A stretch of DNA of 64,000 bases, from contig JAPFBL010001929.1 in the NCBI GenBank assembly GCA_026182355.1, forward strand, positions 868,501 to 932,500. Reading direction: 5' to 3'. Below, in pieces: positions 1,580 through 60,602 of this stretch. How positions within the stretch are numbered: position 1 is the stretch's first letter; each line of letters opens with the position of its first letter. The DNA comes from Hermatobates lingyangjiaoensis (lineage: Eukaryota; Arthropoda; Insecta; Hemiptera; Hermatobatidae). The notes below the pieces were generated by a model. The model was not told the DNA's origin and made no database searches. It was given only the letters and a program-made list of their open reading frames with translations. The translations under genes were made by a program, and so were the position numbers.

Positions 1580-1772
1580 CAATGAACAAAGCACAATAAG
1601 AAAATGGGAAAACAAGACTAAGATCCTTCAACCGTAGCAAGCGGTCTTCGTCAGAGTCAAAAACCCAACTGACGAAGACCGCTTGTTACGGTTGAAAGAT
1701 CTTAGTCTTGTTTTCCCATTTTCTTATTGTGGTTTGATCATTGATTGTTATTTCACGTGTTTATGTGAGATC
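1580..1772. mobile_element. Hammerhead foldback element, family A
   Basis: This is a near-palindrome. The left arm (CAATGAACAAAGCACAATAAG to AGAGTC, 1580-1658) is the reverse complement of the right arm (CTGACGA to TTGATCATTG, 1669-1750). Each arm carries a hammerhead core, reversed at 1616-1658 and forward at 1669-1706. A terminal tail with TATTTCACGTGTTTATGTGA follows, and the element is flanked by (TA)n on both sides. The same architecture recurs at least ten times in the window. The forward arm has lost the 5' strand of helix I. Confidence 0.8.
1616..1658 (-). ncRNA. Hammerhead ribozyme motif, family A
   Basis: Reading the minus strand: helix I 5' strand GACU, core CUGACGA, one extra A, helix II GACCG...CGGUU with a CUUGCUA loop, GAAGGAUCUU instead of the family GAAAGAUCUU, then AGUC closing helix I. 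The A to G change in GAAA makes this copy probably inactive. Confidence 0.6.
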
Positions 1773-1774
1773 TT

Positions 1775-1779
<5 letters not shown>

Positions 1780-1815
<36 letters not shown>
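1780..1815. repeat. (TA)n microsatellite
   Basis: Tract following the AAATCTT-type tail of the preceding foldback element. Confidence 0.85.
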
Positions 1816-1816
<1 letters not shown>

Positions 1817-2157
1817 TATATGTGTGTGTAGGAGGAGAAAGGGCTATTTACTTTATATTTAAAGAAATATCTAATGATAAAGAACTAATTTTCTTTCTCA
1901 CGGTGAATGCTCAAACTGAATGTTCCATGTAAATTATGATTTGGAATTATAATGAAAGTAGGAATTGAAAACAATATTGTGTAATATTTGATACTAATTG
2001 AAAGTCAGCGATTGAGAGAAGCGAGTTATAAAGGGGAGAGGGGATGGCGGCTGTGGTCACAACAGAGACGAGGTGTTGTACCACAGGTGGGTATCATATG
2101 GCCTCCATGGAAAGGGCTCACTTATCCTGCGCACCATCTTGCAAGATTTATTGTACC

Positions 2158-2200
2158 ATTCTTAGGGTTGACCGGAAGCCAGCCGGCACTAATAACCGTC
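2158..2200. repeat. 43-bp dispersed repeat, copy 1
   Basis: ATTCTTAGGGTTGACCGGA through ACTAATAACCGTC recurs at 5400-5442 with two mismatches. The flanks differ, so this is a short conserved core of an unidentified element. Confidence 0.6.
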
Positions 2201-2587
2201 CCCACATCTCTGTCCTTTCCATATTTCTTTCTTTTGTATAATCTAATTCATAACTTAACAGCTCCGCCCCAAAACCCACCTGCTTTAGGTTTTCAACACT
2301 AGTTTTAAACAGCATTCAAAATACCAGACTATTCACTGATCAATTAATAGAAATTAAAACATGATTTAGTTTAGGCTTGTGGTTTTCTTTTTTCATTGTA
2401 TACTACGTTTGGAAATAGATAGTATGCATTAATTTATACCACACTCAAATTTTTTTTTAAACATCAACCAAAATCAACATTACTTCTCATCCACTTTGCA
2501 TCATGCTCGTACTATCTAGTTTTAAATCACTCTCATATTTGTAAACATCCTTGGAAGAGATACTTAATTAAACATTGACTATAGTTA

Positions 2588-2654
2588 TATATGTGACATT
2601 GTATCGGTTGGTGGAGGCTTTCACGTCTCCACTTTTGTGTTTTCTTCTTGTAAC

Positions 2655-2660
<6 letters not shown>
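2588..2660 (+). repeat. Decayed PLE 3' terminal region
   Basis: TGACATTGTATCGG, a T-rich part and TTTCACGTCTCC, then GTAACTTTAATTATATA, match the 3' region of the element at 4413-4595 in order. The central hammerhead core is deleted. The segment ends in (TA)n at 2661. Confidence 0.5.
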
Positions 2661-2704
<44 letters not shown>

Positions 2705-2709
2705 ATATT
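2661..2709. repeat. (TA)n microsatellite
   Basis: Tract between a PLE 3' end on its left and a minus-strand PLE N-terminal fragment on its right. Confidence 0.9.
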
Positions 2710-2862
2710 GGTATAAATAGGTAGCAGATCCTCTTTTAAACAAGTATCATTAAAATTAACTGCAGTCTCGGCATTCACAATCTTAAGACTGAGAGATTCG
2801 ATCCTACGAACTATACTCCTACTAATAGGGTTCAACAAGAAAAGAAGTTGGCCTAGTGACAT
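2710..2862 (-). pseudogene. PLE N-terminal ORF fragment
   Basis: The minus frame begins MSLGQLLFLL, then RRIESLSLKIVNAETAVNFN and KEDLLPIYTNIY, and runs straight into (TA)n. It matches the fragments at 33028-33213 and 690-855. The break at the Thr-Asn-Ile codons is shared by several other copies. Confidence 0.6.
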
Positions 2863-3359
2863 GTTAAATTAAAATCGATGACACATGCTTAGTCATTGCT
2901 ATAAATAGATTAAAAGGATAGTACAGGTTAATATAAAGAGAAGGTCAAAGGTCAATAATGAACAAGAAACAAGCGGTTAGAATAAAAGAGTTGAAAGGTC
3001 AACGGTATAACTGGACTAATAGAGAATCGATGACTCATGCTTAGTCATGATTCATCATAATATAATATTCATAATATAATATTAACTATATTATATTTAA
3101 TAGCTAAATATATATATATTTATAAATACTATTAAACTTTCAACTCTTTTATTTTGACTGCTTTGTTTTTATCCTTTTCTTGATCTTTATTAATCTTTTA
3201 TTTATTTTAATCTATTTATACTATTGACTATCTCATTGATTTTGATAACATGTCACTTGGCCTGCTTCTTTTCCAGTTAAATCCTGTTAGCAGGAAGTTG
3301 GTTCGTAGAGTAGAATTTCTCAGTCTGAATACCGTATAAATATATATATATGTACATAT

Positions 3360-3600
3360 ATATGTGTGCTCTCTAATCGGGATTCCGTCAATTTTCTAGG
3401 ATAAAAAATCAAACTCTCGGTGCCAACGTTTCAGTTTTATTTAAAACCTTTTTCATAGGCAGAAGTAAGAATTTTCTTAGTTAAAACAATTCTTACTTCC
3501 GCCTATGAAAAAGGTTTTAAATAAAACCGAAACGTTGGCACCGAGAGTTTGATTTTTTATCCTAGAAAATTGACCGAATCCCGATTAGAGAGCACACCTA
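3360..3600. mobile_element. Hammerhead-like foldback element, family B
   Basis: The left arm (GTGTGCTCTCTAATCGGGAT... to CAGAAGTAAGAATT) is the near-perfect reverse complement of the right arm (AATTCTTACTTCCGCC... to GATTAGAGAGCACAC), with only about 20 bases of loop around 3478-3488. Each arm contains an HHR-like motif (3422-3460 reverse, 3501-3539 forward). Both arms are intact to their ends, so the duplication is fairly young. Confidence 0.8.
3501..3539 (+). ncRNA. Degenerate hammerhead-like motif, family B
   Basis: GCC, then UAUGAAAAA, helix II GGUUUU/AAAACC with loop AAAU, GAAA, ACGU closing a two-pair helix III, U, then GGC pairing with the first GCC. The catalytic box CUGANGA is altered to CCUAUGA in most copies, although the copy at 30292-30332 keeps CCGAUGA. 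It is therefore probably inactive but recognisable. Confidence 0.4.
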
Positions 3601-3755
3601 TTCTATCAAACGGTCGATATATTATTGAATCTGATATATATATCCTCAAACAAATCCCCGAGTCTAATTCTCATGTCACCCTTAGAGCTTCTGAAGAGGC
3701 ACTCATATGCCTCCTTGGAGCTCGTTCTTCTCATGGTCTTAACCTCTACCGTTAA
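3601..3755 (+). pseudogene. PLE protein C-terminal fragment
   Basis: The frame carries ESNSHVTLRASEEALICLLG then ARSSHGLNLYR and a stop. The motif L(R/K)ASEEAxIxLLGA followed by GLNL recurs at 4110-4195, 17980-18055 and 44640-44730, always just before a T-rich 3' UTR and a hammerhead. That fixes it as the end of a PLE ORF. It joins the preceding foldback at 3600 without the RT domain, so the element is strongly deleted. Confidence 0.65.
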
Positions 3756-4062
3756 TTTTTTTCCCTCATTGTTTATACTTTTTCTTGTTCAATTTTAGTT
3801 GCATTCTTATTGTTGTCTTCATTATTATTTCGTATTATCTACTTTTTATCTTGTTTTATAAATAAATATTTGAGGGATTTCTATTTTTCCTCTCCTCCGC
3901 TTGGGGGCAGCATTGCGGTGGTTCCATGAGTTACTCTGGAGGCCAGTAGCAGTTTGCTTCTCAACGCGAGTACATCGCACTTCTTTCCGATGACGAAGGA
4001 TGTCGAAATATCGAAGTGAGTTCTTTTGTGACTTTATGTGTTCTTTCCTATGTGTTAAAGTT
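3756..4062 (+). mobile_element. PLE 3' UTR and pLTR with hammerhead, family C
   Basis: After the C-terminal stop come about 150 bases of T-rich UTR and a GC-richer stretch (CTTGGGGGCAGCATTGCGG). The hammerhead follows at 3978-4018, then the tail GTGAGTTCTTTTGTGACTTT and GTGTTAAAGTTTATATATA. The tail matches the foldback at 12372-12555. Confidence 0.6.
3978..4018 (+). ncRNA. Hammerhead ribozyme motif, family C
   Basis: Helix I CACUUC/GAAGUG with a few unpaired bases, core CCGAUGA (U4 changed to C), extra C, helix II GA(A)GGAUGUC, GAAA, UAU, C, then GAAGUG. The core substitution predicts weak or no cleavage. Confidence 0.5.
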
Positions 4063-4109
4063 TATATATATATATATATCAGTATTAAGAAAACTCTCAA
4101 ATGATGACA

Positions 4110-4195
4110 CCCAGACCACTCTAAGGGCTTCTGAGGAAGCCTTCATTTGGTTATTGGGTGCAAGAAATTCCCCTGGTCTAAATTTAATCAGATGA
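4110..4195 (+). pseudogene. PLE protein C-terminal fragment, second copy
   Basis: The frame DTQTTLRASEEAFIWLLG then ARNSPGLNLIR and TGA matches the block at 3601-3755 and 17980-18055. The upstream frame is lost at a (TA)n tract at 4063-4080, so the copy is 5'-truncated. Confidence 0.65.
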
Positions 4196-4584
4196 TTTTT
4201 TTATTTTTTATTTTATTTTTTTATTTTATTTTTATTTTTAATTAATTTTTTATTTATTTATTTATTATTTTTTTCCCCTCGTTTAATTTTAGTTAGTTTT
4301 ATGTTTTTCCCTTTCCTTTCTCTTTTTTACTTTTCTCCTCCCTTTTACTTAAATATCACTTTTATTAACTCACAGTCTACACTGGTTCACGTTGGTAAGG
4401 TGGCTGCACTGCGTGTCATTGTATCGCGCCAGTTTGCATCGGCCAGTGGACGCATTTACGTCTCCGTTCCTTCATTCTTTCTCCTTTTATTTTCTTTCTT
4501 TCTATCTTCCTGAAGACGGCAAGACGCCGAAATTATCGAGATTCGTGAGTGTTCGTCCTTTTTCTTGTGTTCTCTAGCTGTAAC

Positions 4585-4620: not shown

Positions 4621-4621
<1 letters not shown>

Positions 4622-5070: not shown

Positions 5071-5084
5071 AATTAGAGTTTGGT

Positions 5085-6455: not shown

Positions 6456-6459
6456 TTGA

Positions 6460-12098: not shown

Positions 12099-12125
12099 AG
12101 TTGGGTTTTTGACTCTGACGAAGAC

Positions 12126-12130
<5 letters not shown>
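12099..12130 (+). mobile_element. Truncated family A foldback
   Basis: AGTTGGGTTTTTGACTCTGACGAAGAC retains helix I 5' strand GACU and core CUGACGA. It is then cut by (TA)n inside helix II. Confidence 0.7.
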
Positions 12131-12279: not shown

Positions 12280-12371
12280 AGAAAGAAGAAGGTATTCAGA
12301 AATCTTGAAAAACTAGTGAAGAAAATGACATCAGTGAAAAATGGTCAGTTGTTCAATGAAATATATATATA
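12280..12371 (+). pseudogene. PLE N-terminal ORF fragment
   Basis: The frame RKKVFRNLEKLVKKMTSVKN then GQLFNEIYIYA nearly matches 52045-52130 and is related to 27641-27712. It ends at a short (TA)n run. Confidence 0.55.
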
Positions 12372-12555
12372 TGCACTTAAACACATAGAAAAGAACACAG
12401 AAAGACACTACAGAACTCACTTCGATATTTCGACATCCGTCGTCATCGGGAAGAAGTGCGAAGTACTCGCGTTGAGAAGCAAACTGCTACTCGGAATATC
12501 GAAGTGAGTTCTGTAGTGTCTTTCTGTGTTCTTTTCTATGTGTTAAAGTGTTTAT
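12372..12555. mobile_element. Hammerhead foldback element, family C
   Basis: The left arm (CACTTAAACACATAGAAAAG to GAACTCACTTCGATATT) and right arm (AATATCGAAGTGAGTTC to CTTTTCTATGTGTTAAAGTG) are reverse complements over about 60 bases. One hammerhead (12418-12458, minus) lies in the left arm; the right arm has lost its core. The loop carries GTACTCGCGTTGAGAAGCAA, also found inverted at 3955-3975. Confidence 0.75.
12418..12458 (-). ncRNA. Hammerhead ribozyme motif, family C
   Basis: Minus strand: CACUUC, core CCGAUGA, extra C, helix II GAC-GGAU-GUC, GAAA, UAU, C, GAAGUG. Helix I can form CUUC/GAAG directly at the core. The core again has U4 changed to C. Confidence 0.55.
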
Positions 12556-13119
12556 TGTCCACACGGACCTTTCATTTTATATATATACGAGTATGTATAT
12601 TCGTATATGCATATATATATATTTCGAAAACCTGAAGGATCGCGAATGAAAAACTTGGACTCACAATCAATATTTTAACCCTTTGAACAGTCGTTCTAAG
12701 GTCGTAGGCAAGGTGGTAGAACGCAAAAAGACGAAAGACAATATATATATACAAAATAAGAGATTCTAAGGACATATGTACCAGAGATCACAAAAACTCA
12801 ATACTACATATATTTCAACTGCGAGGACAAGATTGTATTAGGAGCGACACACTTCAGTCTACAAGATGACGAATTTCATTCTGATTAAAACATGCAGATT
12901 TTTTTTTTTGCAATATACTTCTCTATCAGAGAAGTTGCGACCATCATCAGACTTTTTGTTGATGGATTATCCATCCTGAATCTAAATAATCTAGGGTCAT
13001 AACCAAAATGGGGGCTGAAATTTTTAGTTTAATGACTAGACTGTTATGCCTTCTAATTTTTTTATAAAATTAGTTTTCTGATAATCTTTATAAATATATA
13101 TATATATATATATATATAC

Positions 13120-13798: not shown

Positions 13799-13856
13799 CC
13801 AAATATGTGACTCCCTTGAGGAGTGAAGTCACACTATATATATATATATAAATGTA

Positions 13857-14090
13857 TTAATGATCAAACCGCAATATGAAATGGGAAAAAAGACTAAGAT
13901 CTTTCAACCGTTACAAGCGCTCTTCTTCAGAGTCAAAAACCCAACGATTGGGTTTTTGTGGGTTTTGGGTTTTTGATTCTGACGAAGATCGCTTCGACCT
14001 TTCTGTTGAAACATCTTAGTCTTTTTTCCCATTTCATATTGTAGTTTGATCATTGATTGTTATTTCACGTGTTTATGTGAAATCTTCATA
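13857..14090. mobile_element. Hammerhead foldback element, family A
   Basis: Reverse arm (TGATCAAACCGCAATATGAA to AGAGTC, with motif 13892-13934) and forward arm (GATTCTGACGAAGATCGC to TTGATCATTG) are separated by an expanded GGGTTTTTG loop. The tail TATTTCACGTGTTTATGTGA lies at 14060-14082. The forward helix II carries an insertion (TCGACCTTTC), so that copy is disrupted. Confidence 0.8.
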
Positions 14091-14460: not shown

Positions 14461-14489
14461 TTGTTATTTATCTTTTTTTTACTTTCTTC

Positions 14490-14523
14490 TACCTGAAGAT
14501 GACCTACGAGGTCGAAAGCTTGT
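14490..14523 (+). ncRNA. Hammerhead ribozyme motif, family G
   Basis: UAC, CUGAAGA, extra U, helix II GACC-UACGA-GGUC, GAAA, helix III AG/CU, U, GU. Core and GAAA are intact and helix II is perfect, but helix I is only two pairs here. A relative is at 54993-55025. Confidence 0.55.
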
Positions 14524-14692
14524 TTTTTCCACTATAATTCAGTTATAGTTAGTTCTTAATATATGTTATCAGTTATTGGACTGTGTTATTGCCTCCAGTA
14601 TGTCCATGGGAAATTTGTTATTTTCATTGCTTTTGCAGCATAGAAAAGTGATTAGAAAAAAAGAACAATTGCTGAGAAAAAAACCAAATTCA

Positions 14693-14760
14693 GTCCCATT
14701 TCTTATTGTGGTTTGATCATTGATTGTTATTTCACGTGTTTATGTGAAATCTTGATATAT
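14693..14760 (+). mobile_element. Right end of a split family A foldback
   Basis: TCCCATTTCTTATTGTGGTT then TTGATCATTG and TATTTCACGTGTTTATGTGA, ending at TATATATA. Confidence 0.7.
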
Positions 14761-16726: not shown

Positions 16727-16900
16727 AAACTGAAGTTTATGGGGACTCGGTCAGTTCTTCAGGTTCAAGTTAAACCCTCATTGCCAACGTTTCGGTTTTT
16801 ATTTAAAACCTTTTCCATAGGCAGAAGTATAAATTTTGAAAAAGAAAAACTAAGTATTACATTACAAATTATTTTACGAAGAAAAATAGTCTTTAGAGTT
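16726..16900 (-). mobile_element. Inverted pLTR arm, family B, at the left of the PLE
   Basis: Reads as the reverse complement of the 47880-48030 arm: GACTCGGTCAGTTCTTCAGG, CATTGCCAACGTTTCGG, CAGAAGTATAAATTTTG. HHR-like motif at 16782-16822. Its orientation is opposite to the RT that follows, giving the inverted-pLTR layout known for PLEs. Confidence 0.65.
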
Positions 16901-16959
16901 CAGCAACAGTAGTTTGAATTTCAGAAGATAATATTTATCTATAAACCAGAGGTACCGCC

Positions 16960-18055
16960 ATGGGGACGAGAATGGCTCCTTCTTTTGCGAATTTATTTAT
17001 GGCGAAGCTGGAACAAATGTTCCTTGCTTCTTGCCCTCTTACTCCACTATTCTATGTTAGATTTATTGACGACATGTTCCTTGTTTGGCAGCACGGTGAG
17101 CATCTTTTAGAATCATTCATTACATCCTTCGAAGCTTTCTCGACCTCTACATCTTTCACATACCATTCCTCCCCCAACAACATAACTTTCTTAGATGTTG
17201 ACATCACTCTTAACAGTGGGAGCTTCACGACGTCTGTTCATGTTAAGCCCACCAACCCCCAAAGCTACCTGCATCACAAAAGTTGTCATCCTCCTCATAT
17301 CAAAACATCTATCCCGCGGTCTCTTTCTATCCGTCTTCATCGCCTCTGTATAATATCCAAGATCGGGAAACCAATCTTCAAAAACTCAAAGGAAAATTCA
17401 CTCAGCGCGGTTATCCCCCCAATTTAATCAATAGCTGAATCATCCCTGCCAATGTCAAATTTTCCAGCAATAACAGAAGAGACCCCACTACTACGGTATC
17501 GCTCCTTACCAACTATTTCCCTGGTGTCCATAAATTAAGAAAATTTATCAAAGAACTTTACCCTACCCTTTCCTCTTCCCCCTCTACTGTTTCAATTTTT
17601 AACCAGTTACCCTGCATTTCCTTTAGAAGAGCCTCCAATCTCGCAGATTTGTTCTCCCACCGGGCCGGCAAACTTATTCGGAATCCCCAAAGCTGCGGTG
17701 GCCTACAACGTAGTGGACGTCGGAGATGTTGATTCTGGATTTCCATTTACGTCTCAATTTAATCTTAATTCTTACCCTATTCACAGTCTCTCCTCCTGTA
17801 TCTCCACTGACTGTGTTTACCTCTGTCGATGCTGAACCTTCGGATGAATAACCACAGGCTTTCGGTTAGTAAACGCAGCAGTCGCTGCCGCCATTCATGC
17901 TAATTCCCACCACCTCAGCTTTAATGATTGTTTCACAGTCCAAGTTCTCAAACAAGGCTCCCGTGATAACAGAAATATTACTTTAAAAGCTTCTGAGGAA
18001 GCCCACATTTGGCTCCTAGGGGCACGCTCGAAACCTGGCTTGAATTTAAACCGTT
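16960..18055 (+). pseudogene. Penelope-like reverse transcriptase with GIY-YIG region and C-terminus, broken
   Basis: The best PLE body in the window. The open part (16960-17427) starts MGTRMAPSFANLFMAKLE (PLE/telomerase-type RT palm) and carries YVRFIDDMFLVW with the catalytic Asp pair, then NNITFLDVDITL. After a frame break, TTTVSLLTNYFPGVHKL and RRASNLADLFSH continue the RT thumb and linker. NPQSCGG with following Cys residues marks the linker before the GIY-YIG region (decayed, with a stop near 17835). The frame resumes at DNRNITLKASEEAHIWLLG then GLNLNR and TAA at 18055. The N-terminal half of the RT is missing. Several frameshifts and stops make it non-functional. Confidence 0.75.
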
Positions 18056-20545: not shown

Positions 20546-21115
20546 TTTCATCATTAGTTGACTTATACGCACAAAACATAAAGCAAAATGCGTATTAAGA
20601 AATCATATTAAAAATTAAGAAATGGCAAAAGAAATTATAGTTAATAAATAAACCATAAATAGTTAATTTAATAAAAATTTATATTTTTGGGAAATGATTA
20701 AGTATGGGAGATGATTTAGCACAGAAGATGCAATGTATTATAAAGTGACATGAATATAGTCGATGACCAGCCGGGTTCCCACACCGGAACAATTTGATCC
20801 TATATACAAATAAACTCCACTCTAAACACGTGAAAGAAAAACTAATGTCGAAGAAAGTTAGAAATTTCGAAATAGGACTAATATCTTTCAATAAAGCGAC
20901 TAGTTATCTTTAGAATGACACTGGAGCTGACTCAGTTGGACTGTGACTCTGACCAAGACCAGATGTCATATTTGAATACCTTTCAACTTTCATTTATGAA
21001 TTCCTTAATGGAGATATACGCCTTTGGATTTTATTCACGGGACATACTATACGTAAATAAGTATATTCCATGTACCACCTTATTTCTTATTCTTTTAAAA
21101 ACGATAAGATAACAG
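20546..21115. other. No convincing gene
   Basis: Two opposing short frames (20679-20891 minus, 20915-21112 plus) have ordinary AT-rich composition. A CACGTG...GACTCTGACCAAGACC series at 20828-20955 could be a badly decayed family A foldback. Confidence 0.35.
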
Positions 21116-21118
21116 GAT

Positions 21119-21260
21119 TTCACAAGAAACACTTGAAATAAAAATCAACCTCCAAACCACAGAAAGAAATCAGGAAAAATAGTAGCATCTTCCAACCATA
21201 ACAAACGGTCTTCATGAGAGTCAAATCTCAACTCTTTGGACGTTGAAAGGATAAGATATG
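21119..21260. mobile_element. Decayed family A foldback
   Basis: CACAAGAAACACTTGAAATAAAAATCAACC, then CTTCCAACCATAACAAACGG, TCTTCATGAGAGTC and GTTGAAAGGATAAGAT follow the family A order with many changes. The forward arm is nearly gone. Confidence 0.5.
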
Positions 21261-23437: not shown

Positions 23438-23600
23438 ACAAGATTTCACATAAATACGTGAAATAACAATCAATGATCAACCCTCAATAATAATTGGGAA
23501 AAAAAGACGAAGAGTCAGTTGGGTTTTTGACTCTGACGAATACCGCTTGTTACGTTTGAAAGATCTTGGTCCTTTTTTCCTATTTCATATTGTTGTTTGA
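23438..23600. mobile_element. Hammerhead element, family A, with shortened reverse arm
   Basis: The left end CAAGATTTCACATAAATACG is the reverse complement of the family tail. The reverse hammerhead arm is almost deleted (GACGAAGAGTCAG), while the forward arm is complete at 23529-23571. It ends at (TA)n at 23601. Confidence 0.75.
23529..23571 (+). ncRNA. Hammerhead ribozyme motif, family A
   Basis: GACU, CUGACGA, AU, helix II ACCG-CUUGUUA-CGUUU (two defects), GAAA, helix III AG/CU, U, GGUC. Helix I is GACU/GGUC with one wobble. Confidence 0.6.
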
Positions 23601-23628
23601 TAATATATATATATATATATATATATAT
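23601..23628. repeat. (TA)n microsatellite
   Basis: Separates a hammerhead element from the inverted repeat at 23629. Confidence 0.9.
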
Positions 23629-26150: not shown

Positions 26151-26156
26151 TAATTT

Positions 26157-26350
26157 AAAATTTGCTATTGTTAATTGGATAGTCAAATAACAGCAGAGCG
26201 TCTCTTCTCCTTCTTACTATGCTTGGAACAACATTTACAGTCACTACTTTGTAATATAATGTTAATCATAATTTAGATCAGTCATATGCTCCCTTTTGAA
26301 ACAGAGCATCAACATTTTGCTTAACCTTACGGGCAAGGATATCAGTCCTT
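26157..26350 (-). repeat. Arm A' of the interleaved inverted duplication
   Basis: Near-perfect reverse complement of 26745-26942 over about 190 bases, including CAGCAGAGCGTCTCTTCTCC and AACAGAGCATCAACATTTTG. See the 26157-27087 finding. Confidence 0.85.
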
Positions 26351-26607: not shown

Positions 26608-26611
<4 letters not shown>

Positions 26612-26663
26612 GAGTTCGAGATTAACAAAGAGCAACACACAAAGTAGGGAAACACACTTACAG

Positions 26664-26695
26664 ACTCAAATTTTCGGGTAATCCGTCTTCAGGAG
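26664..26695 (-). ncRNA. Hammerhead ribozyme motif, family H
   Basis: Minus-strand equivalent of the motif at 27002-27032, same sequence. See that entry. Confidence 0.6.
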
Positions 26696-27001
26696 AAAAG
26701 AGAATGGGAGACCAAGCACGTTGTAGACGCAACGGCAAGTAACTTAAGGGTTACTGATATCTTTACCCGTAAAGTTAAGCAAAATGTTGATGCTCTGTTT
26801 CAAAAGGGAGCATATCACTGATCTAAATTATGATTAACATTATATTACAAAGTAGTAACTGTAAATGTTGTTCCAAGCATAGTAAGAAGGAGAAGAGACG
26901 CTCTGCTGTTATTTGACTATCCAATTAACAATAGCAAATTTTAAGGGTTAAGGGTTACTTGCCGTTGCGTCTACAACGTGCTTGGTCTCCCATTCTCTTT
27001 T

Positions 27002-27032
27002 CTCCTGAAGACGGATTACCCGAAAATTTGAG
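27002..27032 (+). ncRNA. Hammerhead ribozyme motif, family H
   Basis: Helix I CUC/GAG perfect, core CUGAAGA, extra C, helix II GG-AUUAC-CC, GAAA, helix III AA/UU with no real loop, U. Both catalytic boxes intact. Same motif at 43922-43952, and decayed at 32902-32935 (CTGAAGATGAATTTTTCAAAA). Confidence 0.6.
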
Positions 27033-27121
27033 TCTGTAAGTGTGTTTCCCTACTTTGTGTGTTGCTCTTTGTTAATCTCGAACTCGTATTGTGTCCAGTT
27101 TGGATCGTATTTCGTTTTATC

Positions 27122-27165
27122 AGTATATATATATAATATATATATATATAAAATAAAATAAATTC
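27122..27165. repeat. (TA)n microsatellite, imperfect
   Basis: Right of the B arm. Confidence 0.85.
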
Positions 27166-27169: not shown

Positions 27170-27290
27170 CGAAGGAAACACACAGAAAGACACAGACATA
27201 ACTCACATCGATATTTCGACCATCGTCGTCATCAGGAGGTGCGAAGAGCGAAGAGCGAAGAGTCCCGCAGGAAGACAGGGCGGTACTCAT
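27170..27290 (-). mobile_element. PLE pLTR fragment with hammerhead, family C
   Basis: Reverse of the family C tail (CACACAGAAAGACACAGAC), then the motif at 27204-27241, then a 7-bp tandem GCGAAGA repeated three times and GTCCCGCAGGAAGACAGG. Confidence 0.65.
27204..27241 (-). ncRNA. Best-preserved hammerhead ribozyme motif, family C
   Basis: Minus strand: helix I CACCUC/GAUGUG (five pairs, one mismatch), core CUGAUGA unaltered, extra C, helix II GAC-GAUG-GUC, GAAA, UAU, C at the cleavage position. All invariant bases of a type I hammerhead are present. Cleavage would follow the C before GAUGUG. Confidence 0.68.
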
Positions 27291-27297
27291 ATATATA

Positions 27298-27450
27298 TCA
27301 ATGATCAAACCACAATATGAAAATGAGAAACTCAGTTGGGTTTTTAACTCTGACGAAGACCGCTTGTTACGGTTGAAAGATCTTAGTCTTGTTTTCCTAT
27401 TTTCATACTGTGGTTTGATCATTGGTTGTTATTTCACGTGTTGTGAAATG
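27298..27450 (+). mobile_element. Hammerhead element, family A, one ribozyme arm
   Basis: TCAATGATCAAACCACAATATG starts the left arm, but it jumps straight to CTCAGTTGGGTTTTT, so only the forward hammerhead (27346-27388) remains. The right arm runs to TTGATCATTGGTTGTTATTT and CACGTGTTGTGAAAT. Confidence 0.75.
27346..27388 (+). ncRNA. Hammerhead ribozyme motif, family A
   Basis: AACU, CUGACGA, extra A, helix II GACCG-CUUGUUA-CGGUU, GAAA, helix III AG-AU-CU, U, AGUC. Core intact; helix I has three pairs. Confidence 0.62.
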
Positions 27451-27480
27451 TTTATATATATATATATATATATATATATT
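27447..27480. repeat. (TA)n microsatellite
   Basis: Between the hammerhead element and the PLE inverted fragment. Confidence 0.9.
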
Positions 27481-27730
27481 CGTAAATTTTGGTAGCAGTC
27501 CTTCTTTGACACACACATTATTGAAAATGACACCAAATTTAGCTGATACCTGTTTCTTAACAAGTTTCTCAATTTTTCTAAATATCACTCTCGTTATTTC
27601 GTCTACACAATAAAGTACATCTCCTATGGTCGACAAGATTAGAATATTTAGAAAAATTGAGAAACTTGTTAAGAAACAAGTATCAGCTAAATTTGGTGTC
27701 ATTTTTAATAATATGTATATATATATAAGT
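27481..27730. pseudogene. PLE N-terminal fragment as an inverted pair
   Basis: The left half (27515-27590) is the reverse complement of the right half (27641-27712), nearly perfect over about 70 bases. The coding reading is IFRKIEKLVKKQ then VSAKFGVIFNN, and on the left arm also KEGLLPKFTNIY up to (TA)n. Both copies end at (TA)n. Confidence 0.7.
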
Positions 27731-27766
27731 TTCTTCTCAACCCCTTACCAGATGTTCTCTGCATGA

Positions 27767-27819: not shown

Positions 27820-28806
27820 TTACGGCCCATTTAGGACCTGAGCCTCCGCTACCAAGGTGCGCCACTGATCTCGATCCAAGGCTGTCCTTCTCCAGCGAGC
27901 CGCACCTAATCTTCGTAGGTCATCCTCCACATCTTGGAGCCATCGAAGTCGTGGTCTACCTCTCCTTCGGTGACCTCCAGGTGTCCATACAGGCTTTTTT
28001 GGGCCCTCTATCCTCGCTCATACGATGCACATGCCCCAACCAACGAATACGCGCAGCTTTGATGGTTGCCACTAGCGATGGCTCTCCATACAGTCTTTTC
28101 AACTCTTCGTTGGTCCTAATGCGCCATATATTTCCATCTCTTTTTGGGCCATATATTTTCCGGAGCACCTTCCGCTCCCAGCGATTGAGAATGCCCTCTT
28201 GGGTTTTGGTCAGTACCCATGCTTCCGATCCGTAAGTAACTATTGGTCGAAGGATGGTTTTATACATGTAACCTTTGCTTTTATGGATATATTTCGGCTT
28301 CTTAATAAACTTAGGAGAGAGAAGTAGCTTTTATTAGCTGTTGCTAATCTCGCCTGTATATCCATATTCACCTGATTATCATGCGTTATTACCGCACCCA
28401 GGTACGTTACCTTCTCTTTTCGATGGAAATGTCTCTCTCCCACTTCCAAAGAAGCATACCTGTTTGGAGTTTTGCTGGTGACCATGTACTCTGTTTTTTC
28501 AGAGCTAACTTTTAGACCCAGTTCATTTGCCTTGTTCTCCATCTCTGTAAAAACTGTTATTAGGGTTTGTTGGTTTCGGGCAAGGACCTCTACATCATCA
28601 GCAAAGGCTAAATGTTGTTCCATTCTATTATATATAGAACCACCTGATTTGTGGATAATCGCTCTTATTGCCCTATCAAGAACAAGGTTAAACAGCACTG
28701 ATGATAGAGGGTCTCCTTGGCGCACTCCTTTTTCTACTTTAAAAGGGGTCGACACAGAATTCTGTACTTTTATCTTGCAGTAGGTATCACTCAGGGTCAT
28801 TTTCAC
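27820..28806 (-). pseudogene. Non-LTR retrotransposon reverse transcriptase, 5'-truncated, two frameshifts
   Basis: The minus strand starts in frame MKMTLSDTYCKIKVQNSV. It carries KGVRQGDPLSSVLFNLVLD (RT motif), HLAFADDVEVLARN (catalytic FADD), KVSSEKTEYM and KVTYLGAVI. Near 28250 the frame shifts to MYKTILRPIVTYGSEAWVLT and RWLGHVHRMSEDRGPKKAC. Near 27960 it shifts again to GRPRLRWLQDVEDDLRRLG and RDQWRTLVAEA, with a stop at 27820. This is the typical C-terminal half of a non-LTR RT. The endonuclease and early RT are lost where (TA)n begins at 28825. A dead copy. Confidence 0.82.
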
Positions 28807-28821
28807 AAGGTTTGTGGTTTT

Positions 28822-28824
<3 letters not shown>

Positions 28825-28856
<32 letters not shown>
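28825..28856. repeat. (TA)n microsatellite
   Basis: Coincides with the 5' truncation point of the minus-strand RT. Confidence 0.9.
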
Positions 28857-28859
<3 letters not shown>

Positions 28860-28861
<2 letters not shown>

Positions 28862-29585
28862 AACGGATGGATTTAAAATAAAAGTCATGCAGCGGAAAAA
28901 AGTTAAATTTTATTATTTGGAAGTGTAAAACTGCAGTCACTTTTCCAGTTTTGAAATGTCTCTGAATGAAAATTTACAAAATTGAGGTATTAAGCAGTCG
29001 TATGGTAGGTTTTTGGTCAATTTTTTATTTGTGGAAATACTTTTTTTCAACGATATCAGTGACAGAAGCATAACAGGGAAGTTGATCGTGGCTTAAACGA
29101 GCCCTTTGTCTTTTTGAAACAACATCACACTATGTATATATCAATTGGTGCCATCTACTGGTATGAGGTCACAAAATATAAAAAAAACTATAAGATGGAT
29201 CACTAGTCAAACGCGTGTGGTATGCACTAACTCAGTCATGCATACTTGTATCTTTTCCATTGAAATATCTGTAAATGACTTGGTGTTCTGTTAACCGTAT
29301 GGCTACCCTGGTGAATTAAGGATAGTGCATACAGTATAGTACAGTAAATACGACTGTACACTTCTACAGGTTGCGCAAATAACCGTCTGATACTTGAGCT
29401 TATAGAATTATGCTGATTTGACTAAATACTGGCCACTACTACTAGAAGTAACACATTTTTACGATGTGTGCATTAACAGATGATCTATCACGGTGGGAGT
29501 GGCTCAGTTTTGACTAGGTATTGTTCACTTTAGAAGTAACAGACTTCCACAAAGTGCACTGACCCTCTGATAATTTAGCGTCATT
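28860..29585. other. No gene seen
   Basis: A local semi-tandem (CACTACTACTAGAAGTAACA..., TTCACTTTAGAAGTAACAGA, 29430-29545) is the only structure noted. Confidence 0.45.
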
Positions 29586-30232: not shown

Positions 30233-30235
30233 TAC

Positions 30236-30700
30236 AAAATAAAAGTTTAGCAGGACTCGGTCAGTTCTTCAGGTTCGAATTAAACTCTCATTGCTAACGT
30301 TGCGGTTTTTATTAAAATCCTTTTTCATCGGCAGAAGTATAAAATTTTTGAAAGAGAAAAACTAAACATTACACTAAAGGTTATTATACAGAGAAAACAA
30401 TTTGTGGATTTCAGAAACAACTGTATCGTTTGAACGAACACGTGACACTTCATTGAATGGACAAGTATCACGTCTTCATTCAAACTAGACATTTCTTTCT
30501 GAAATCCACAAACTGTTTTCTCTGCTAAATTAACTCTAATGTAATAGCTGGTTTTTCTCTTTCAAAAATGTTCTATTTCTGCCTATGAAAAAAGTTTTCA
30601 ATAAAAATCAAAACGTTGGCAATGAGAGTTTAATTTGAACCTGAAGAACTAACTGGGTTCTGATAGATTTTAATTTTGTTTCCACTTCACGGTCGATACT
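30236..30700. mobile_element. Hammerhead-like foldback element, family B, long arms
   Basis: Left arm (GGACTCGGTCAGTTCTTCAG through GTGGATTTCAGAAA) and right arm (TTTCTGAAATCCACAAAC through CTGAAGAACTAACTGGG) are reverse complements over about 170 bases around a loop with CGTGACACTTCATTGAATGG. HHR-like motifs lie at 30292-30332 (minus, core CCGAUGA) and 30581-30620 (plus). Terminal TTTTAATTTTGTTTCCACTT and ACGGTCGATACTTTTAACAA follow. Confidence 0.78.
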
Positions 30701-31015: not shown

Positions 31016-31442
31016 TATATGTCAAGGTCTAAACTGCTCTAAGAAATTCAGAAATGGGACATTTTTCGATTAAGTAGCAGCCTTCGTCTGAGTAACGAAT
31101 ACTGAGTAGCAGCCTTTGAATTGATCGCCATTGATTTTGGTCCTATTCTGGAATTACTTACTGAGGTTATTTTTTATTTCTCGTATTTGTTGCAAAAACT
31201 TGCTTCCACTGCAAAGAAGTCCACCAAGAAATCCAATCACGATACCGCAAATTTGATGAATCTTTACTCACCAACTTAAACCCTTTAATTCAGCAATTAT
31301 TATCAACCATCAGATTCCTGCCAGCCTTATTAAAAGGCTAAAAAGATGTTGTCTCTTAGATCTACTCATCAATGCTAACTGACAAGACCTATTTCAAGTG
31401 ATCAGAACAATTTATATGGAGTACTACGAATAGGTGTATATA

Positions 31443-31548
31443 TGATCAAACCACAATATGAAATGGGAAAAAAGACCTTAGTATTTTTCATATTGTGGTT
31501 TGATCATTGATTGTTCTTTTACGTGTTTATGTGAAATCTTGTTATATA
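31443..31548. mobile_element. Minimal family A palindrome without ribozyme cores
   Basis: ATGATCAAACCACAATATGAAATG and its inverse CATATTGTGGTTTGATCAT are separated by only about 25 bases (AAAAAAGACCTTAGTATTT). Both hammerhead cores were deleted, leaving the outer arms and the CACGTGTTTATGTG tail. Confidence 0.75.
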
Positions 31549-31557
31549 TATGTAAGT

Positions 31558-31770
31558 ATCAAGATTTCCCATAAACACGTTAAATAACAATCAATAATCA
31601 AACCACAATATGAAATGGGAAAAAAGGGCTAAGATCTTTCAACCAGAAAAAGCGGTCTTCGTCAGAGTCAAAAATCCAACTGGGTTTTTGACTCTGACGA
31701 ATACCGCTTGTTGTGGTGGAAAGATCTTAGTCCTTTTTTCCCATTTCATATTGTGGTTTGATGATTCATA
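31558..31770. mobile_element. Complete hammerhead foldback element, family A
   Basis: The most symmetrical copy. Left outer tail CATAAACACGTTAAATAAC, left arm, reverse motif (31627-31669), loop AAAAATCCAACTGGGTTTTT, forward motif (31690-31732), right arm to TTGTGGTTTGATGATT. The left tail is present here, so the element is palindromic almost end to end. Confidence 0.82.
31690..31732 (+). ncRNA. Hammerhead ribozyme motif, family A
   Basis: Helix I GACU/AGUC perfect, core CUGACGA, AU, helix II ACCG-CUUGUUG-UGGU, GGAAA, helix III AG/CU, U. Core intact; helix II has one wobble. Confidence 0.62.
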
Positions 31771-33035: not shown

Positions 33036-33213
33036 TAGTATAGGTTGGCAGCAAATCTTCTTGGAGGTATATTTTGTTGAAATGTACCGCAGCTTTGGCA
33101 TTTACGACTTTCAAACTAAGCTGTTCCAGTCTCCTAACAGTCTTACAAATAGAAGGTGGTAATTCCCAAATAAGTTGTCCAAAGGACATTGAAACAAGAC
33201 TAAGATCTTCCAA
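33036..33213 (-). pseudogene. PLE N-terminal ORF fragment
   Basis: The minus frame begins MEDLSLVSMSFGQLIWEL, then TVRRLEQLSLKVVNAKAAVH and LQEDLLPTYTNI. Again the coding match ends at Thr-Asn-Ile. It abuts a family A hammerhead at 33190 on its other side. Confidence 0.6.
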
Positions 33214-33335
33214 CTCAGTTGGGTTTTTGACTCTGACGAAGACCGCTTGTTACGGTTGAAAGATCTTAGACTTGTTTTCCCATTTCTTATTGTGGTTTGA
33301 TCATTGATTGTTATTTCACGTGTTTATGTGAAATC
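33190..33335 (+). mobile_element. Hammerhead element, family A, one ribozyme arm
   Basis: AACAAGACTAAGATCTTCCAAC jumps to TCAGTTGGGTTTTTGACT. The forward motif (33229-33272) and full right end with TTGATCATTG and CACGTGTTTATGTGAAATC remain. Same internal jump as in the 27298-27450 copy. Confidence 0.78.
33229..33272 (+). ncRNA. Hammerhead ribozyme motif, family A
   Basis: GACU, CUGACGA, extra A, helix II GACCG-CUUGUUA-CGGUU, GAAA, helix III AG/CU, U, AGAC. One base of the helix I 3' strand is changed. Confidence 0.6.
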
Positions 33336-47739: not shown

Positions 47740-48065
47740 ATAGAAACTGGAAAACAGCACAATATAAAAATAGGTCCACAATATAACTAAATATTACATT
47801 AAAGATTATTTTTTTCAAAGAAAAATATAGTCTGTGGATTTTAATAACAACTGTCTAGTTTGAATATTTTTCTTTGAAAAGTAATGTTTAATATAACACT
47901 TAGTTTTTCTGTTTCAAAATTTATACTTCTGTCTATGAAAAAGGTTTTAAATAAAAACCGAAACGTTGGCAATGAGAGTTGAATTTGAACCTGAAGAACT
48001 GACCGAGTCCTGATAACTTTAATTTTGTTTCTATTTCATTGTCAATATTTTCATCAATATTTATA
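47740..48065 (+). mobile_element. Family B pLTR, mostly one arm
   Basis: An internal palindrome (TTTTTTTCAAAGAAAAATATAG / ATATTTTTCTTTGAAAAG) is followed by TTATACTTCTGTCTATG, AAACCGAAACGTTGGC (motif 47930-47970) and CTGAAGAACTGACCGAGTCC. It matches the left part of the RT-bearing PLE (16726-16960) inverted. Confidence 0.65.
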
Positions 48066-48157: not shown

Positions 48158-48316
48158 AAAAGACTAAGATCTTTCAACTTTAATAAGCAGTCTTCATCAG
48201 AGTCAAATCTCAACTGATGAAAGCTTGTTACAGACGAAAGATCTTAGTCTCTTTTTTTGATTTCTTACTTTTGTTTGAACGTTGATTTGTATTTTTATTG
48301 TGAAATATTGTTATAA
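48158..48316. mobile_element. Decayed family A foldback
   Basis: AAGACTAAGATCTTTCAAC, CAGTCTTCATCAGAGTC, TCAACTGATGAAAGCTTG, GAAAGATCTTAGTC and a remnant of GTTTGATCATTG. Both cores are eroded. Confidence 0.65.
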
Positions 48317-51796: not shown

Positions 51797-52020
51797 GTAT
51801 ATATCAATGATCAAACCACAATATGAAATGGGGAAAAAAGACTAAGATCTTTCAACCGTAACAAGCGGTCTTCGACAGAGTCAAAACCATAAACCTCTAG
51901 TTCGGTTTTGACACTGACGAAGACCGCTTGTATCTTAGTATCTTAGTATTTTTTCTCCATTTCATATTGTGGTTTGATCATTGATTGTTATTTCACGTGT
52001 TTATGTGAAATCTTGTTTTA
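51797..52020. mobile_element. Hammerhead foldback element, family A
   Basis: Both outer arms are intact (ATCAATGATCAAACCACAATATG and CATATTGTGGTTTGATCATTGAT). The reverse motif lies at 51840-51882 (core CUGUCGA); the forward arm has lost part of helix II and GAAA. The tail CACGTGTTTATGTGAAATC leads into (TA)n. Confidence 0.8.
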
Positions 52021-55080: not shown

Positions 55081-55084
55081 TAAC

Positions 55085-56260: not shown

Positions 56261-56267
56261 CAAGTTT

Positions 56268-58050: not shown

Positions 58051-58274
58051 TAAGAAAAACTTTGTCGAATGTTACCAGCTGGGAAACATCAGTCTATTTG
58101 TCTGGAGCATTCCGTCCAGACTCGCTCGGCAAGATCTATTTAATTCTTGGTCGACCTTAGAAACTGTCGGAAGCAATGTCTTACATGTTTTGCGTGTACA
58201 CCGGCTTTATTGTACCAGCAAGTCTTAACTTTATTCTACGTGTCAACTGCAACATCATATATATTAGTCTATTA

Positions 58275-58615
58275 CAGAGGTTCCGAACTTTTATTTGTCT
58301 GTGGACCCCCTAAAAACTGTGGACCCACAATGACCTATAAAACCATAGCTATACGTATGTAAATACGCAAAAAATGATTTGTGTATATATAAAATATATA
58401 ACAGATTCCATTATATTCACATCTTTAATTCCAAAACTAAGCACCAATATTTTTCTAAAGTGCTTGTCTTAAATTGCATTTTTAAACCAATTTAAAGAAT
58501 GCTTTAAAAGTAATAAAAACTAATATCATATTATTTGATTGGACGTTTATTGCTCCCCGTAAAATATCATTTCACACCCTCGGCGGGTGTGAGAACTCCA
58601 GGTTGGGAACCCCTA
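58275..58615. mobile_element. hAT-like non-autonomous element next to an exon
   Basis: Starts CAGAGGTTCCGAACTTTTA and ends CCAGGTTGGGAACCCCTA, giving inverted ends of about 14 bases. GTGGACCCCC subterminal motifs resemble those of 19749-20537. The flanking 8 bases do not match, so the target duplication has eroded. Confidence 0.6.
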
Positions 58616-58639
58616 CTCGAAAGTTCCTTTCCTGAAAAG

Positions 58640-58817
58640 GAAAGTGTTACCTATCTCACAGACTTTGATAAAGGAGTATATAGAATGAATAATTCAAAAT
58701 ATGGTATTAAATCAATTCGAGAAGGGTTTTATAAAGTGTTCCCAGTGTCAGAAGCCGAGGCTTTTGTAACAAACGATTATGAGTTTCCTTACACACTGAA
58801 GAGGATAATGACACAAG
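58640..58817 (+). CDS. Exon 1 of 4 visible: 3' part of an unrecognised host gene
   Basis: This is the first visible exon of a plus-strand gene. It is 178 nt, open in phase 0, and encodes 59 residues beginning ESVTYLTDFDKGVYRM and ending TLKRIMTQ. The acceptor is a pyrimidine-rich stretch ending GAAAAG before GAA AGT GTT; the donor is CAAG|GTAATG. Composition is ordinary globular protein (mixed charged, aromatic and aliphatic residues, no low complexity), unlike the surrounding noise frames. An hAT-like remnant ends only 24 bases upstream, so it lies within the preceding intron. The exon ends in phase 1, which matches the next exon at 62019. I do not recognise the family. Upstream exons were not found and probably lie outside the window or beyond a long intron. 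Confidence 0.62.
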
Positions 58818-58934
58818 GTAATGATATGGCTTAGGCAGGAAAATATGCAATCCTCTGTTATAATATTACTAACCCATAATCACTTAGTTAATTAATCCGC
58901 AAATATATATTAAAGAACAATATAGGCAGCAGAA

Positions 58935-59075
58935 GGCCTGGTTAGCTCAGTGGTTAACGTACTCGCCTCTGGGCTGGTAGTCCGAGGTTCGATCCCCACC
59001 TGGCCCTCGATTTATAAACGCGGGAGGTGAATAAATCTTAGTACGTCGTCCCTCGAAGACGTCAGTCAACAAAAT
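58935..59075 (+). mobile_element. tRNA-derived SINE, 5' part
   Basis: Head GGCCTGGTTAGCTCAGTGG (box A), TACTCGCCTCTGGGCTGG, GAGGTTCGATCCCC (box B), then GGAGGTGAATAAATCTTAG and TACGTCGTCCCTCGAAG. The 3' body is absent. The head is the best conserved of all copies and lies in the intron of the 58640-63178 gene. Confidence 0.88.
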
Positions 59076-59414
59076 AATTACTCCCAGAATCAGAACAGTC
59101 AGTTGCGGGATAAAACAAACAAAAAAACTGGCATTATTTAAGGTTGAATGTTTACAAAATCATGGTGTGTGAATTCGGAGTGTATATTTAATTGTTACAG
59201 TAATAAAAAAAATAACACAATTACTGCTGATACTCAGGTGTCTAAAGTTGAAATCTACTAGTTGTTTACAAAATGGATCTTAATTTGTTAAATTATTTAA
59301 ATGTATGTATAATTTAAAGGGATATGCATATTTTAGTAGCTATTGGTCATATAACAACTTTTTTTTATTTTGTTGTTCTTATTTTGAAATAAACACAAGG
59401 ACGCAATATCTCCT

Positions 59415-59640
59415 TGCGTACGCCCATTGTTTGGCGCTGATTGTTTTTAGTTCTGAAGATTACAGGTTCAAATCTTGGTTTAAACCCTAAATTTTTTATG
59501 CGAGATGTGGGTAATGCTGTGCACGAGTGAACACCAAACAGTCAGCCCCCCAAACTTGTACGATATGAGCTCGTCATACAATATCCCTGCTGAAATAAAC
59601 TTGAGTGTAGTGAAATATGTTTTCCGATGTAGAATCAACA
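59415..59640 (+). mobile_element. tRNA-derived SINE, decayed
   Basis: ACAGGTTCAAATCTTGG (box B-like), GCGAGATGTGGGTAATGC, AAACTTGAGTGTAGTG and TTTCCGATGTAGAATCAAC keep the order of the family body. Confidence 0.5.
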
Positions 59641-60439
59641 CGGTAATGTAGTTCGTTCGTTATCAAAGTGAGTGACAACTAATGAATGAGCCATAATTTG
59701 TGTCTCTAGAACAACACTAAAAACTGAAAGCTTATTAGTGTAGGTGCTTGAAGGGAACGAAAAACACAAATTAAATGCAGTTACAATTTTTAGAAGAAAT
59801 AAAGAAATCAGTAGTGCCTTAACCTTAACTAGTGACATAGACGAGTACAGAAAAAAAATCTTGTAGTGGTCTACACTCAACTTTACTTTAAAAATAGGCA
59901 TTACCAGAAATCAGTTTAATTGAATGAATGCAGGGCCAGTCGAAAGTTAACAGGCAGTAGACTGTTTCTTTGTACTGAAGATGACAGGTTTAGATATAGG
60001 AAATGACGCAAAGTTCTTCATATACGGGATGGAGAACTCTCTGAGAGGACAGGTAAAGCTGGTAGTCCCGGACGAGTGCAATGTCAGTACTCATGAAATA
60101 TCTCCCTACATCAATACATTTAAAATTTAAAAATATCAATTTTAGAAGAAAGACAGTTGTCTGGTTCAGCCGTAGTTAAAGGAGGTGCCAAATATTATAT
60201 GAGTCACACTGGAAGCAAACATTAATTGATTTTATTATCAATTAGACTCAGCAGAGTTTGTAATGTAGATTATAATATCAAATTATTCTGTTTGTCACTT
60301 AAAGACTATTAATAGATAATAAGTAAATTGAAGAATTATATACAGATACTATACTGGTTTAAATACCACACAATTATGGATTGCACAACTAATGACTTAA
60401 AGACTCTACATATTCATTGATATGATATTCACATACACT

Positions 60440-60602
60440 ATATCAATGATCAAACCACAATATGAAATGAAAAAAAAAACTAAGATCTTTCAATCGTAAC
60501 AAGCGGTCTTCGTCAGAGTCAAAAATCCAACTTTTTTCCCACTTCATATCGTGGTTTGATCATTGATTGTTATTTCACGTGTTTGTATGAAATCTTGTTA
60601 TC
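60440..60602. mobile_element. Hammerhead element, family A, reverse ribozyme arm only
   Basis: TATCAATGATCAAACCACAATATG, motif 60478-60520 on the minus strand, AAAAATCCAAC, then a direct jump to TTTTTTCCCACTTCATATCG and TTTGATCATTGATTGTTATT. The forward core is deleted. Located in the intron of the 58640-63178 gene. Confidence 0.78.
60478..60520 (-). ncRNA. Hammerhead ribozyme motif, family A
   Basis: Minus strand: GACU, CUGACGA, extra A, helix II GACCG-CUUGUUA-CGAUU, GAAA, helix III AG/CU, U, AGUU. Core intact; one mismatch in helix II. Confidence 0.6.

Follow-up and report, generated by a model that had tools for sequence, protein, structure and literature searches.

A 64,000-nt stretch of the genome of the hemipteran insect Hermatobates lingyangjiaoensis (assembly GCA_026182355.1, contig JAPFBL010001929.1, positions 868,501 to 932,500; hereafter the window) contains a family of short palindromes, family A, whose two arms can each carry a hammerhead-like ribozyme motif, one the mirror image of the other. 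These palindromes are not autonomous foldback elements; judged from sequence comparison, each arm corresponds to the 3' end of a Penelope-like element (PLE) predicted to encode a reverse transcriptase (RT) and a GIY-YIG endonuclease. In our preferred reading, to which we give a probability of roughly 0.7, each palindrome is a PLE insertion composed of two cDNA copies of the 3' end of the PLE RNA, joined head to head. The mirrored hammerheads would then be a by-product of insertion and not a new regulatory device.

Family A is represented in the window by 14 copies or fragments, collected by blastn with a consensus typed from the listed copies and then aligned (Table 1); weaker matches at 27765 and 51219 were left out of this count. 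Copies consist of (TA)n, a left arm beginning ATCAATGATC..., a loop, a right arm ending ...GATCATTGAT, an unpaired tail of ~31 nt, and again (TA)n, and the family itself is non-coding. The left outer arm is kept in eight window copies, six of which start at one common base and two 4 nt further in. Of eight window copies whose left end is complete, seven are flanked by TA runs on both sides, versus 2.1% of random positions. An earlier note on this DNA had described four of the palindromes as foldback elements built from two inverted hammerheads, and inverted arms are indeed present in all four, with complementarity of 95% at 1578-1745, 91% at 31590-31769, 92% at 13856-14057 (reported over 53 nt), and 96% at 51803-51985 (reported over 46 nt). 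A covariance model, described below, scores both arms of each, the weakest motif being that in the right arm of w51803 (51908+, E=0.019), but a strict descriptor of the ribozyme finds both arms free of core defects only in w31557 (31620- and 31684+). The other three (w1578, w13856, and w51803) have a defect in each arm; in w1578, A15.1 of the left motif is G, and the right motif passes the strict descriptor yet has lost stem I at the loop. The note's three copies with one motif (27297, 33190, and 60442) and its copy that lost both motifs but kept the outer arms (31442-31545) were recovered as described. Absent from it were the asymmetric ~31-nt 3' tail and the copies or fragments at 20823-20960, 21109, 23438, 48158, 14694, and 12099. 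In the left motif of w48158, helix II is preserved through a double change, C-G to T-A.

Table 1. Family A copies and fragments, and features of other families, in the window
Feature	Coordinates	Strand	Description
Family A copy w1578	1578..1774	+	left arm 1578-1669, right arm 1669-1745, tail 1746-1774; motifs 1615-1660(-) and 1663-1708(+), one defect each
Family A fragment	12099..12128	+	starts at AGTTGGG directly after TA-rich DNA
Family A copy w13856	13856..14086	+	two arms and tail; motifs 13891-13936(-) and 13973-14022(+), helix II damaged in both
Family A copy	14694..14758	+	5'-truncated: right outer arm and tail
Family A copy	20823..20960	-	old, decayed, two arms
Family A copy	21109..21234	-	old, single arm with tail
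Family A copy w23438	23438..23604	-	left arm full, motif 23527-23572(+); outer part of right arm and tail
Family A copy w27297	27297..27452	+	left arm short (34 nt); right arm full, intact motif 27344-27389(+); tail
Family A copy w31442	31442..31545	+	outer arms and tail only; neither motif present
Family A copy w31557	31557..31769	-	tail 31560-31589 at low end; both motifs (31620-, 31684+) pass the strict descriptor
Family A copy w33190	33191..33335	+	left arm fragment 33191-33214; right arm full, motif 33227-33272(+); tail
Family A copy w48158	48158..48314	+	older, ~70% identical to consensus; two arms; left motif 48161-48206(-)
Family A copy w51803	51803..52017	+	two arms and tail; left core A6 -> T, right motif without GAA
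Family A copy w60442	60442..60601	+	left arm full, motif 60477-60522(-); right arm of outer 37 nt, and tail
Other family, left and right arms	12369..12590	.	left arm with motif 12417-12455(-), right arm from near predicted cleavage site, right-only tail
Other family, single hammerhead-like motif	14487..14528	+	descriptor and covariance model
Unrelated PLE-like family, same build	26608..27124	+	136-nt arms 100% identical, 210-nt spacer, right-only tail, TA repeats on both sides
Single hammerhead-like motif	27203..27241	-	family forming one-tailed double-motif palindromes at L028:4168-4258 and L036:172-337

The motif of family A runs CTGACGA, one extra base, helix II (GACC/GGTT), GAA, a self-complementary AGATCT, and then T|AGTC, which pairs with the GACT preceding the core. 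The descriptor (CTGANGA, one extra base, helix II, GAA, self-complementary stem III, H17; stem I not required), which was composed after the motif had been seen, gave nine exact-core matches in the window against a mean of 0.15 and a maximum of 1 in 20 order-2 Markov sequences, and the motif is therefore not a chance occurrence. Three of the nine fall in families unrelated to family A (816-, 14483+, and 27199-). All nine have the extra base between A9 and helix II, and a variant of the descriptor without that base found no exact-core match in the window. A covariance model built from nine sequences, which tolerates core damage, returned 24 window matches at E<0.01, 15 of them outside the training set. 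Across 13 sequences, including three from family A, covariation of helix II scored 0.426; shuffled alignments gave 0.168 and slid ones no more than 0.144. The hammerhead reading of the earlier note is thus upheld by the exact-core matches, by the covariation, and by the CTGANGA/GAA core, as befits the type I class with minimal helix III. One mark of that class is missing, as the Rfam hammerhead models gave no match at E<=10 in the window and three short stretches; viral contigs searched for close copies of the motif held none. Lunse, Weinberg and Breaker reportedly described minimal or dimeric hammerheads of PLEs in 2017. The motif fits the minimal, helix III-less type reported for PLEs, and self-cleavage is predicted, hence our term hammerhead-like. 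In the passages of the cited papers on which we draw here and below, minimal PLE hammerheads have a core CTGANGA...GAAA and a helix III cut to 4-6 self-complementary nt (PMC6155905, PMC7229834). The family A motif shares this core and the reduced helix III, and may differ from them in the extra base after A9.

The link to PLEs, also suggested in the earlier note, is borne out by longer relatives fetched from the assembly as numbered loci. L009:1202-1917 and L026:3360-3747 have family A ends with longer arms (348/275 and ~265/75 nt, respectively), and an interior query found an inverted pair on contig C377, fetched as L036. In order, this locus comprises a left arm at 420-1362, a spacer of 939 nt, a right arm at 2302-3244, the tail, and a TA repeat. 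Its arms are 943 nt each and 100% complementary, their outer parts are 97.5-97.9% identical to family A, and the covariance model matches them at 452-497(-) and 3167-3212(+). An RVT_1 match lies in the spacer (E=5.6e-7) and a GIY-YIG match in the right arm (E=6.6e-5); the two are in separate frames and barely exceed the Pfam cut-off. The same GIY-YIG frame recurs on the minus strand of the left arm. The element is broken. It has the parts of a canonical endonuclease-bearing (EN+) PLE, namely, RT, GIY-YIG, and a hammerhead motif in the pseudo-long terminal repeat (pLTR), and RT activity on this RNA and use of the TA-rich target are predicted. An optional 30- to 40-nt tail at one end and an AT-rich target, further traits of PLEs, are seen in family A. 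Because L036, L009, and L026 carry the same arms with PLE sequence between them, family A is best read as a PLE 3' end, present mostly as head-to-head pairs. At L008:1997-2251, a tail-less arm is followed by PLE interior; the fetched stretch contains no matching right arm, and this may be an insertion from the inner start only. The window itself contains fragments of two different reverse transcriptases, at 28240-28872(-) and 16945-17427(+) (RVT_1, E=1.5e-18 and 5.4e-6, respectively).

To place these copies in the genome (909,949,117 bases in 1629 contigs), we sampled 270 kb, split into 27 stretches of 10 kb positioned at round coordinates; contig C84 alone supplied 20 of these. They held 14 two-arm and 4 one-arm copies, 2 copies cut by stretch ends, and 1 tail-only piece, as classed by eye. 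Leaving aside the last two groups, the two-arm form accounts for 14 of 18 scorable copies, and outer ends are identical where kept. The possibility raised in the earlier note, that copies are mostly single-armed and the palindromes independent local inversions with differing junctions, does not agree with these counts. The inverted-pair form of the note is thus found genome-wide; the part that does not hold is its status as an independent foldback element, the palindromes being better described as products of head-to-head PLE insertion. Scaling the 21 copies and pieces in 270 kb gives a rough estimate of ~7x10^4 copies per genome, and tens of thousands of small insertions, mostly head-to-head in the sample, seem to be present. 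Motif matches in the random stretches numbered 40 at E<=0.05, and the 15 neighboring pairs within 700 nt comprised 10 divergent, 4 convergent, and 1 same-strand pair. One convergent pair, at L030 (4286(+) and 4426(-)), stands 140 nt apart, the reverse of the usual divergent order. Loci L002-L008 were picked by similarity to w31557; they are excluded from the tallies and enter only one of the arm-identity analyses.

Several regularities run through the copies. In each of the 22 two-arm copies for which both ends could be scored (by eye, L036 included), the ~31-nt tail is confined to a single end, and one-sided tails occur in four cases from other families (window 26608-27124 and 12369-12590, L036:122-387, and L028:4100-4330). 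The two arms of a copy also tend to be of one kind. Among four subfamilies, both arms belong to the same one in 18 of 21 copies, against a permuted mean of 6.8 (P about 1e-5); for this test w33190 and w48158 were dropped from 23 two-arm copies for weak scores, L034 was counted as concordant on a tie, and the templates were written after the arms had been seen. Arm identity within copies exceeded that with right arms permuted (P=0.0003, n=13), and non-majority states common to both arms exceeded permutation in nine window copies (P=0.0013, a value that depends on gap placement). Longer relatives exist for subfamily G (L009 and L036) and for subfamily T (L026). Arm lengths vary while outer ends stay fixed, with left/right values of ~943/1915, 348/275, 265/75, 90/90, 90/37, and 34/90 nt (the tail is counted in the first two right-arm figures). 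Inner joints vary between copies in the window and the random loci, and because they differ from copy to copy, many doubles look as though they were made at insertion.

The inner limit of the arms often falls at AGTTGGG. In the window and random loci together, 24 arms reach it; 21 of these stop at that point or no more than ~3 nt away, and the other 3 run on into PLE sequence. The set was found by a pattern starting at AGTTGGG, so that earlier-ending arms lie outside it. L036 is also outside this list, and both of its arms run past AGTTGGG. Several of the 21 keep the preceding TC, which may be template or letters shared at the joint. In L036 the context is GTGTTC|AGTTGG, which we take to resemble the arthropod initiator, and AGTTGGG is a probable transcription start. 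We also considered whether inner ends peak at the predicted ribozyme cleavage site, but the ends at arm positions ~46-60 around the predicted 50/51 cut are too loose to support such a claim.

These features can be assembled into the following scheme. The PLE RNA would read AGTTGGG (its probable start), hammerhead-like motif, ~40 nt, an inner RT start site, the 31-nt tail, and an outer RT start site. The PLE nuclease would cut both strands of a (TA)n site; one DNA end would prime RT at the outer start and give the tailed arm, and the other at the inner start and give the tail-less arm. Both cDNAs would extend toward the RNA 5' end and their far ends would be joined, in several copies through short shared letters. 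Arms of 90 nt would come from RNAs starting at AGTTGGG, and longer arms from longer RNAs. Because the putative RT start sites lie just downstream of the ribozyme, every double insertion that is long enough would have two mirrored ribozymes. Biochemistry of PAc, a PLE of Anolis carolinensis, offers a precedent: in vitro, both strands were cut and extended, AT-rich DNA was preferred, and RT started at two adjacent internal RNA sites, the interval between them corresponding to the tail (PMC11167929). The one-tail structure is explained if the outer site serves one DNA end and the inner site the other. PAc resembles the PLE of family A in having GIY-YIG and RT and a hammerhead just upstream of the RT start sites, but its loci are tandem, and head-to-head double insertions are not discussed in the text covered (PMC11167929).

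A more specific version is tentative. A single RNA on a dimeric PLE enzyme may be copied twice per event, from the outer site by one DNA end and from the inner site by the opposite end. If one RNA is copied twice, exactly one tail per double insertion is expected, together with arms that mostly share subfamily and variants. An intact short copy, with outward-facing AGTTGGG starts, could then possibly spread as a self-sustaining, two-faced element resembling a short interspersed element (SINE), its palindrome arising anew at each insertion. A single-origin reading was also considered; it is favored by the constant left end and weakened by the two left-end variants 4 nt apart and by the differing arm lengths.

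It is also important to set out the observations that weigh against head-to-head insertion of two cDNAs. At L028, a further and separate piece of tail, counted by us as another fragment, lies 48 nt beyond the left arm on the far side of a TA repeat. Arms are discordant in 3 of the 21 copies: w23438, with a decayed right arm; w31442, with a shortened one; and L029, a composite. A copy's own right arm is the best match for only 4 of 13 left arms. Arm identity also depends slightly on side, left or right (a difference of 0.003, P=0.003), as would be expected if some palindromes were passed on as units. Inner arm ends match within 2 nt in seven copies (w31557, w13856, w51803, L013, L018c, L028, and L035), a match that dual priming does not predict. 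The joint of w31557, CCCAGTTGGG, is common to L002-L008, the seven fetched loci most similar to it and chosen for that similarity, which makes a replicating palindrome possible. Finally, the TA repeats flanking the copies leave no target-site duplication readable.

The alternative that survives best, although we consider it rather unlikely, is that the short palindrome is the replicating unit, its full-length palindromic RNA being copied by PLE proteins and its arms kept alike by hairpin-mediated DNA repair. This would account for the constant outer ends, for the joint shared by L002-L008, for the two-armed state of old copies (~70% identity), and for the numbers of first-look candidates, 6879 for the short form versus 417 for the interior query. 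The best 40 of those 6879, chosen as best matches, match the double-arm query on both strands. However, a shared joint is to be expected among matches ranked by similarity to the query, and the copies in the window and at the random loci differ in where their arms meet. In addition, longer relatives exist for each of two subfamilies, agreement between arms at several sites would require repeated conversion, and other families are built alike.

Alternatively, PLE cDNA or antisense RNA might fold back and be copied, as proposed in 2013 for rotifer Penelope elements (PMC3846280), which we regard as quite unlikely for family A. Self-priming would suit arms mostly of one subfamily and the seven copies with matching inner ends, some of which have 2-20 extra bases between the arms; these ends are compatible with self-priming or with loss of the tip after insertion. 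Against it, the 943-nt left copy of L036 stands beside a right part of ~1.9 kb, so that the fold-back point is not a symmetric tip, and over half of the short two-arm copies are asymmetric, with inner ends at, for instance, 1/16, 1/47, 1/54, and 58/1. Both observations argue against self-priming as the sole route. It also leaves without explanation why the left copy ends at one of two neighboring points with TA-rich DNA beyond.

The earlier note had further suggested that the antisense arm acts as a built-in switch, and we found no positive support for this. The unconstrained fold of the palindrome is a long hairpin that beats the ribozyme-constrained fold by 56.0 and 55.4 kcal/mol on the two strands of w31557 and by 44.2 kcal/mol in w1578, whereas the same gap is 3.2, 9.5, and 3.6 kcal/mol for separate arms (stem III, which is loopless, was left free, and pairing was within one molecule only). 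In the one-motif copies it is 7.0 (w27297), 20.2 (w33190), 14.7 (w23438), and 15.2 kcal/mol (w60442). Such a difference between the full hairpin (44-56 kcal/mol) and the separate arms (3-10 kcal/mol) is what a device gating the ribozyme through its antisense arm could exploit. As read from the sequence, however, the antisense arm is transcribed first in both directions, and because of this order and of the hairpin advantage, the ribozyme is most simply off in the full hairpin; the paired arms probably silence each other's ribozyme. The motifs also decay, w31557 being the only one of the four reported doubles without core defects in both arms, and ribozyme mutants of the Anolis PLE leave in vitro insertion unchanged (PMC11167929). 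A functional regulatory device is thus very improbable. Still less credible is a DNA transposon derivative (a miniature inverted-repeat transposable element [MITE] or foldback element) inserting at TA: it would fit the inverted arms and TA flanks, but the terminal inverted repeats are unequal, with an extra ~31-nt tail on the right side only, the tail end is retained in single-arm copies of the random loci, and PLE coding sequence lies between the L036 arms.

The closest described relatives are rotifer Penelope elements. In Adineta vaga Pen2a and others, an inverted pLTR occurs beside direct pLTRs and one inverted pLTR has a 31-bp tail; the inverted pLTR is 37 bp shorter, head-to-head order is most frequent, targets are AT rich, and the inverted pLTRs were explained by self-priming, possibly on an antisense template (PMC3846280). 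The inverted form, single tail, head-to-head order, and AT-rich targets are shared with family A. The rotifer elements differ in their low copy number and in having target-site duplications readable in some copies, and a ribozyme is not mentioned in the passages used (PMC3846280); family A, in contrast, is a unit of roughly 120 nt with ~7x10^4 copies and arms mostly of one subfamily. Animal retrozymes, like family A, comprise very many type I hammerheads in small non-autonomous retroelements, but they are tandem 150- to 450-bp repeats with canonical motifs, unlike the mostly divergent close pairs seen here (PMC7229834). A retrozyme reading was rejected, since the pair orientations given above are not those of tandem or LTR-flanked hammerhead monomers.

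Other families in the window and fetched loci deserve brief mention. The motifs of the 26608-27124 palindrome, 26662(-) and 26999(+), were seen by eye and are weak in the covariance model (E=0.26 each); 26155-26346 is an inverted copy (97%) of the spacer of this palindrome (26608-27089), giving a larger nested inverted structure. A second PLE family, at L028:4168-4258 and L036:122-387, has two mirrored motifs and a one-sided tail with a GTCC-GGAC stem-loop, and window 12560-12580, within a tail, shows a similar small hairpin. Single hammerhead-like motifs of other families stand at window 820, 3981, 4505, 13763, 18274, 44061, and 54990; in the alignment these too carry the extra base after A9. 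Long palindromes of another family lie at 3360-3601 and 30234-30679 (arms of 120 and 217 nt with AAACGTTGGC-type sequence), with relatives at 16739-16835 and 47918-48014; that at 3360-3601 also has an unequal right end and TA flanks. The palindromes at 27533-27696 and 3436-3525 score as microRNA precursors (MIR530, E=2.3e-8, and MIR9563, E=1.2e-5) below the Rfam gathering scores and are probably just foldback repeats.

Taken together, part of this picture was already known. The earlier note could not say whether the inverted-pair form was new: an inverted pLTR with one tail is described for Penelope (PMC3846280), and so are hammerheads in PLE pLTRs; taken in combination, the two imply mirrored hammerheads. 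The literature matches listed included no paper on inverted hammerhead pairs in PLE palindromes, nor any that used the agreement between arms to test how PLEs replicate. What is newer here is the short unit in ~7x10^4 copies, the arm concordance, and the evidence against self-priming as the sole route. Two models of PLE replication compete, the self-priming proposed in 2013 (PMC3846280) and the two-strand cutting with extension from two internal starts reported in vitro in 2024 (PMC11167929). Each family A arm records RT start and stop points, and these models can be tested directly against the one-tail rule, the agreement between arms, and the variation in arm length. The one-tail rule in particular would link the puzzling tail of PLEs to the use of two start sites on opposite strands.

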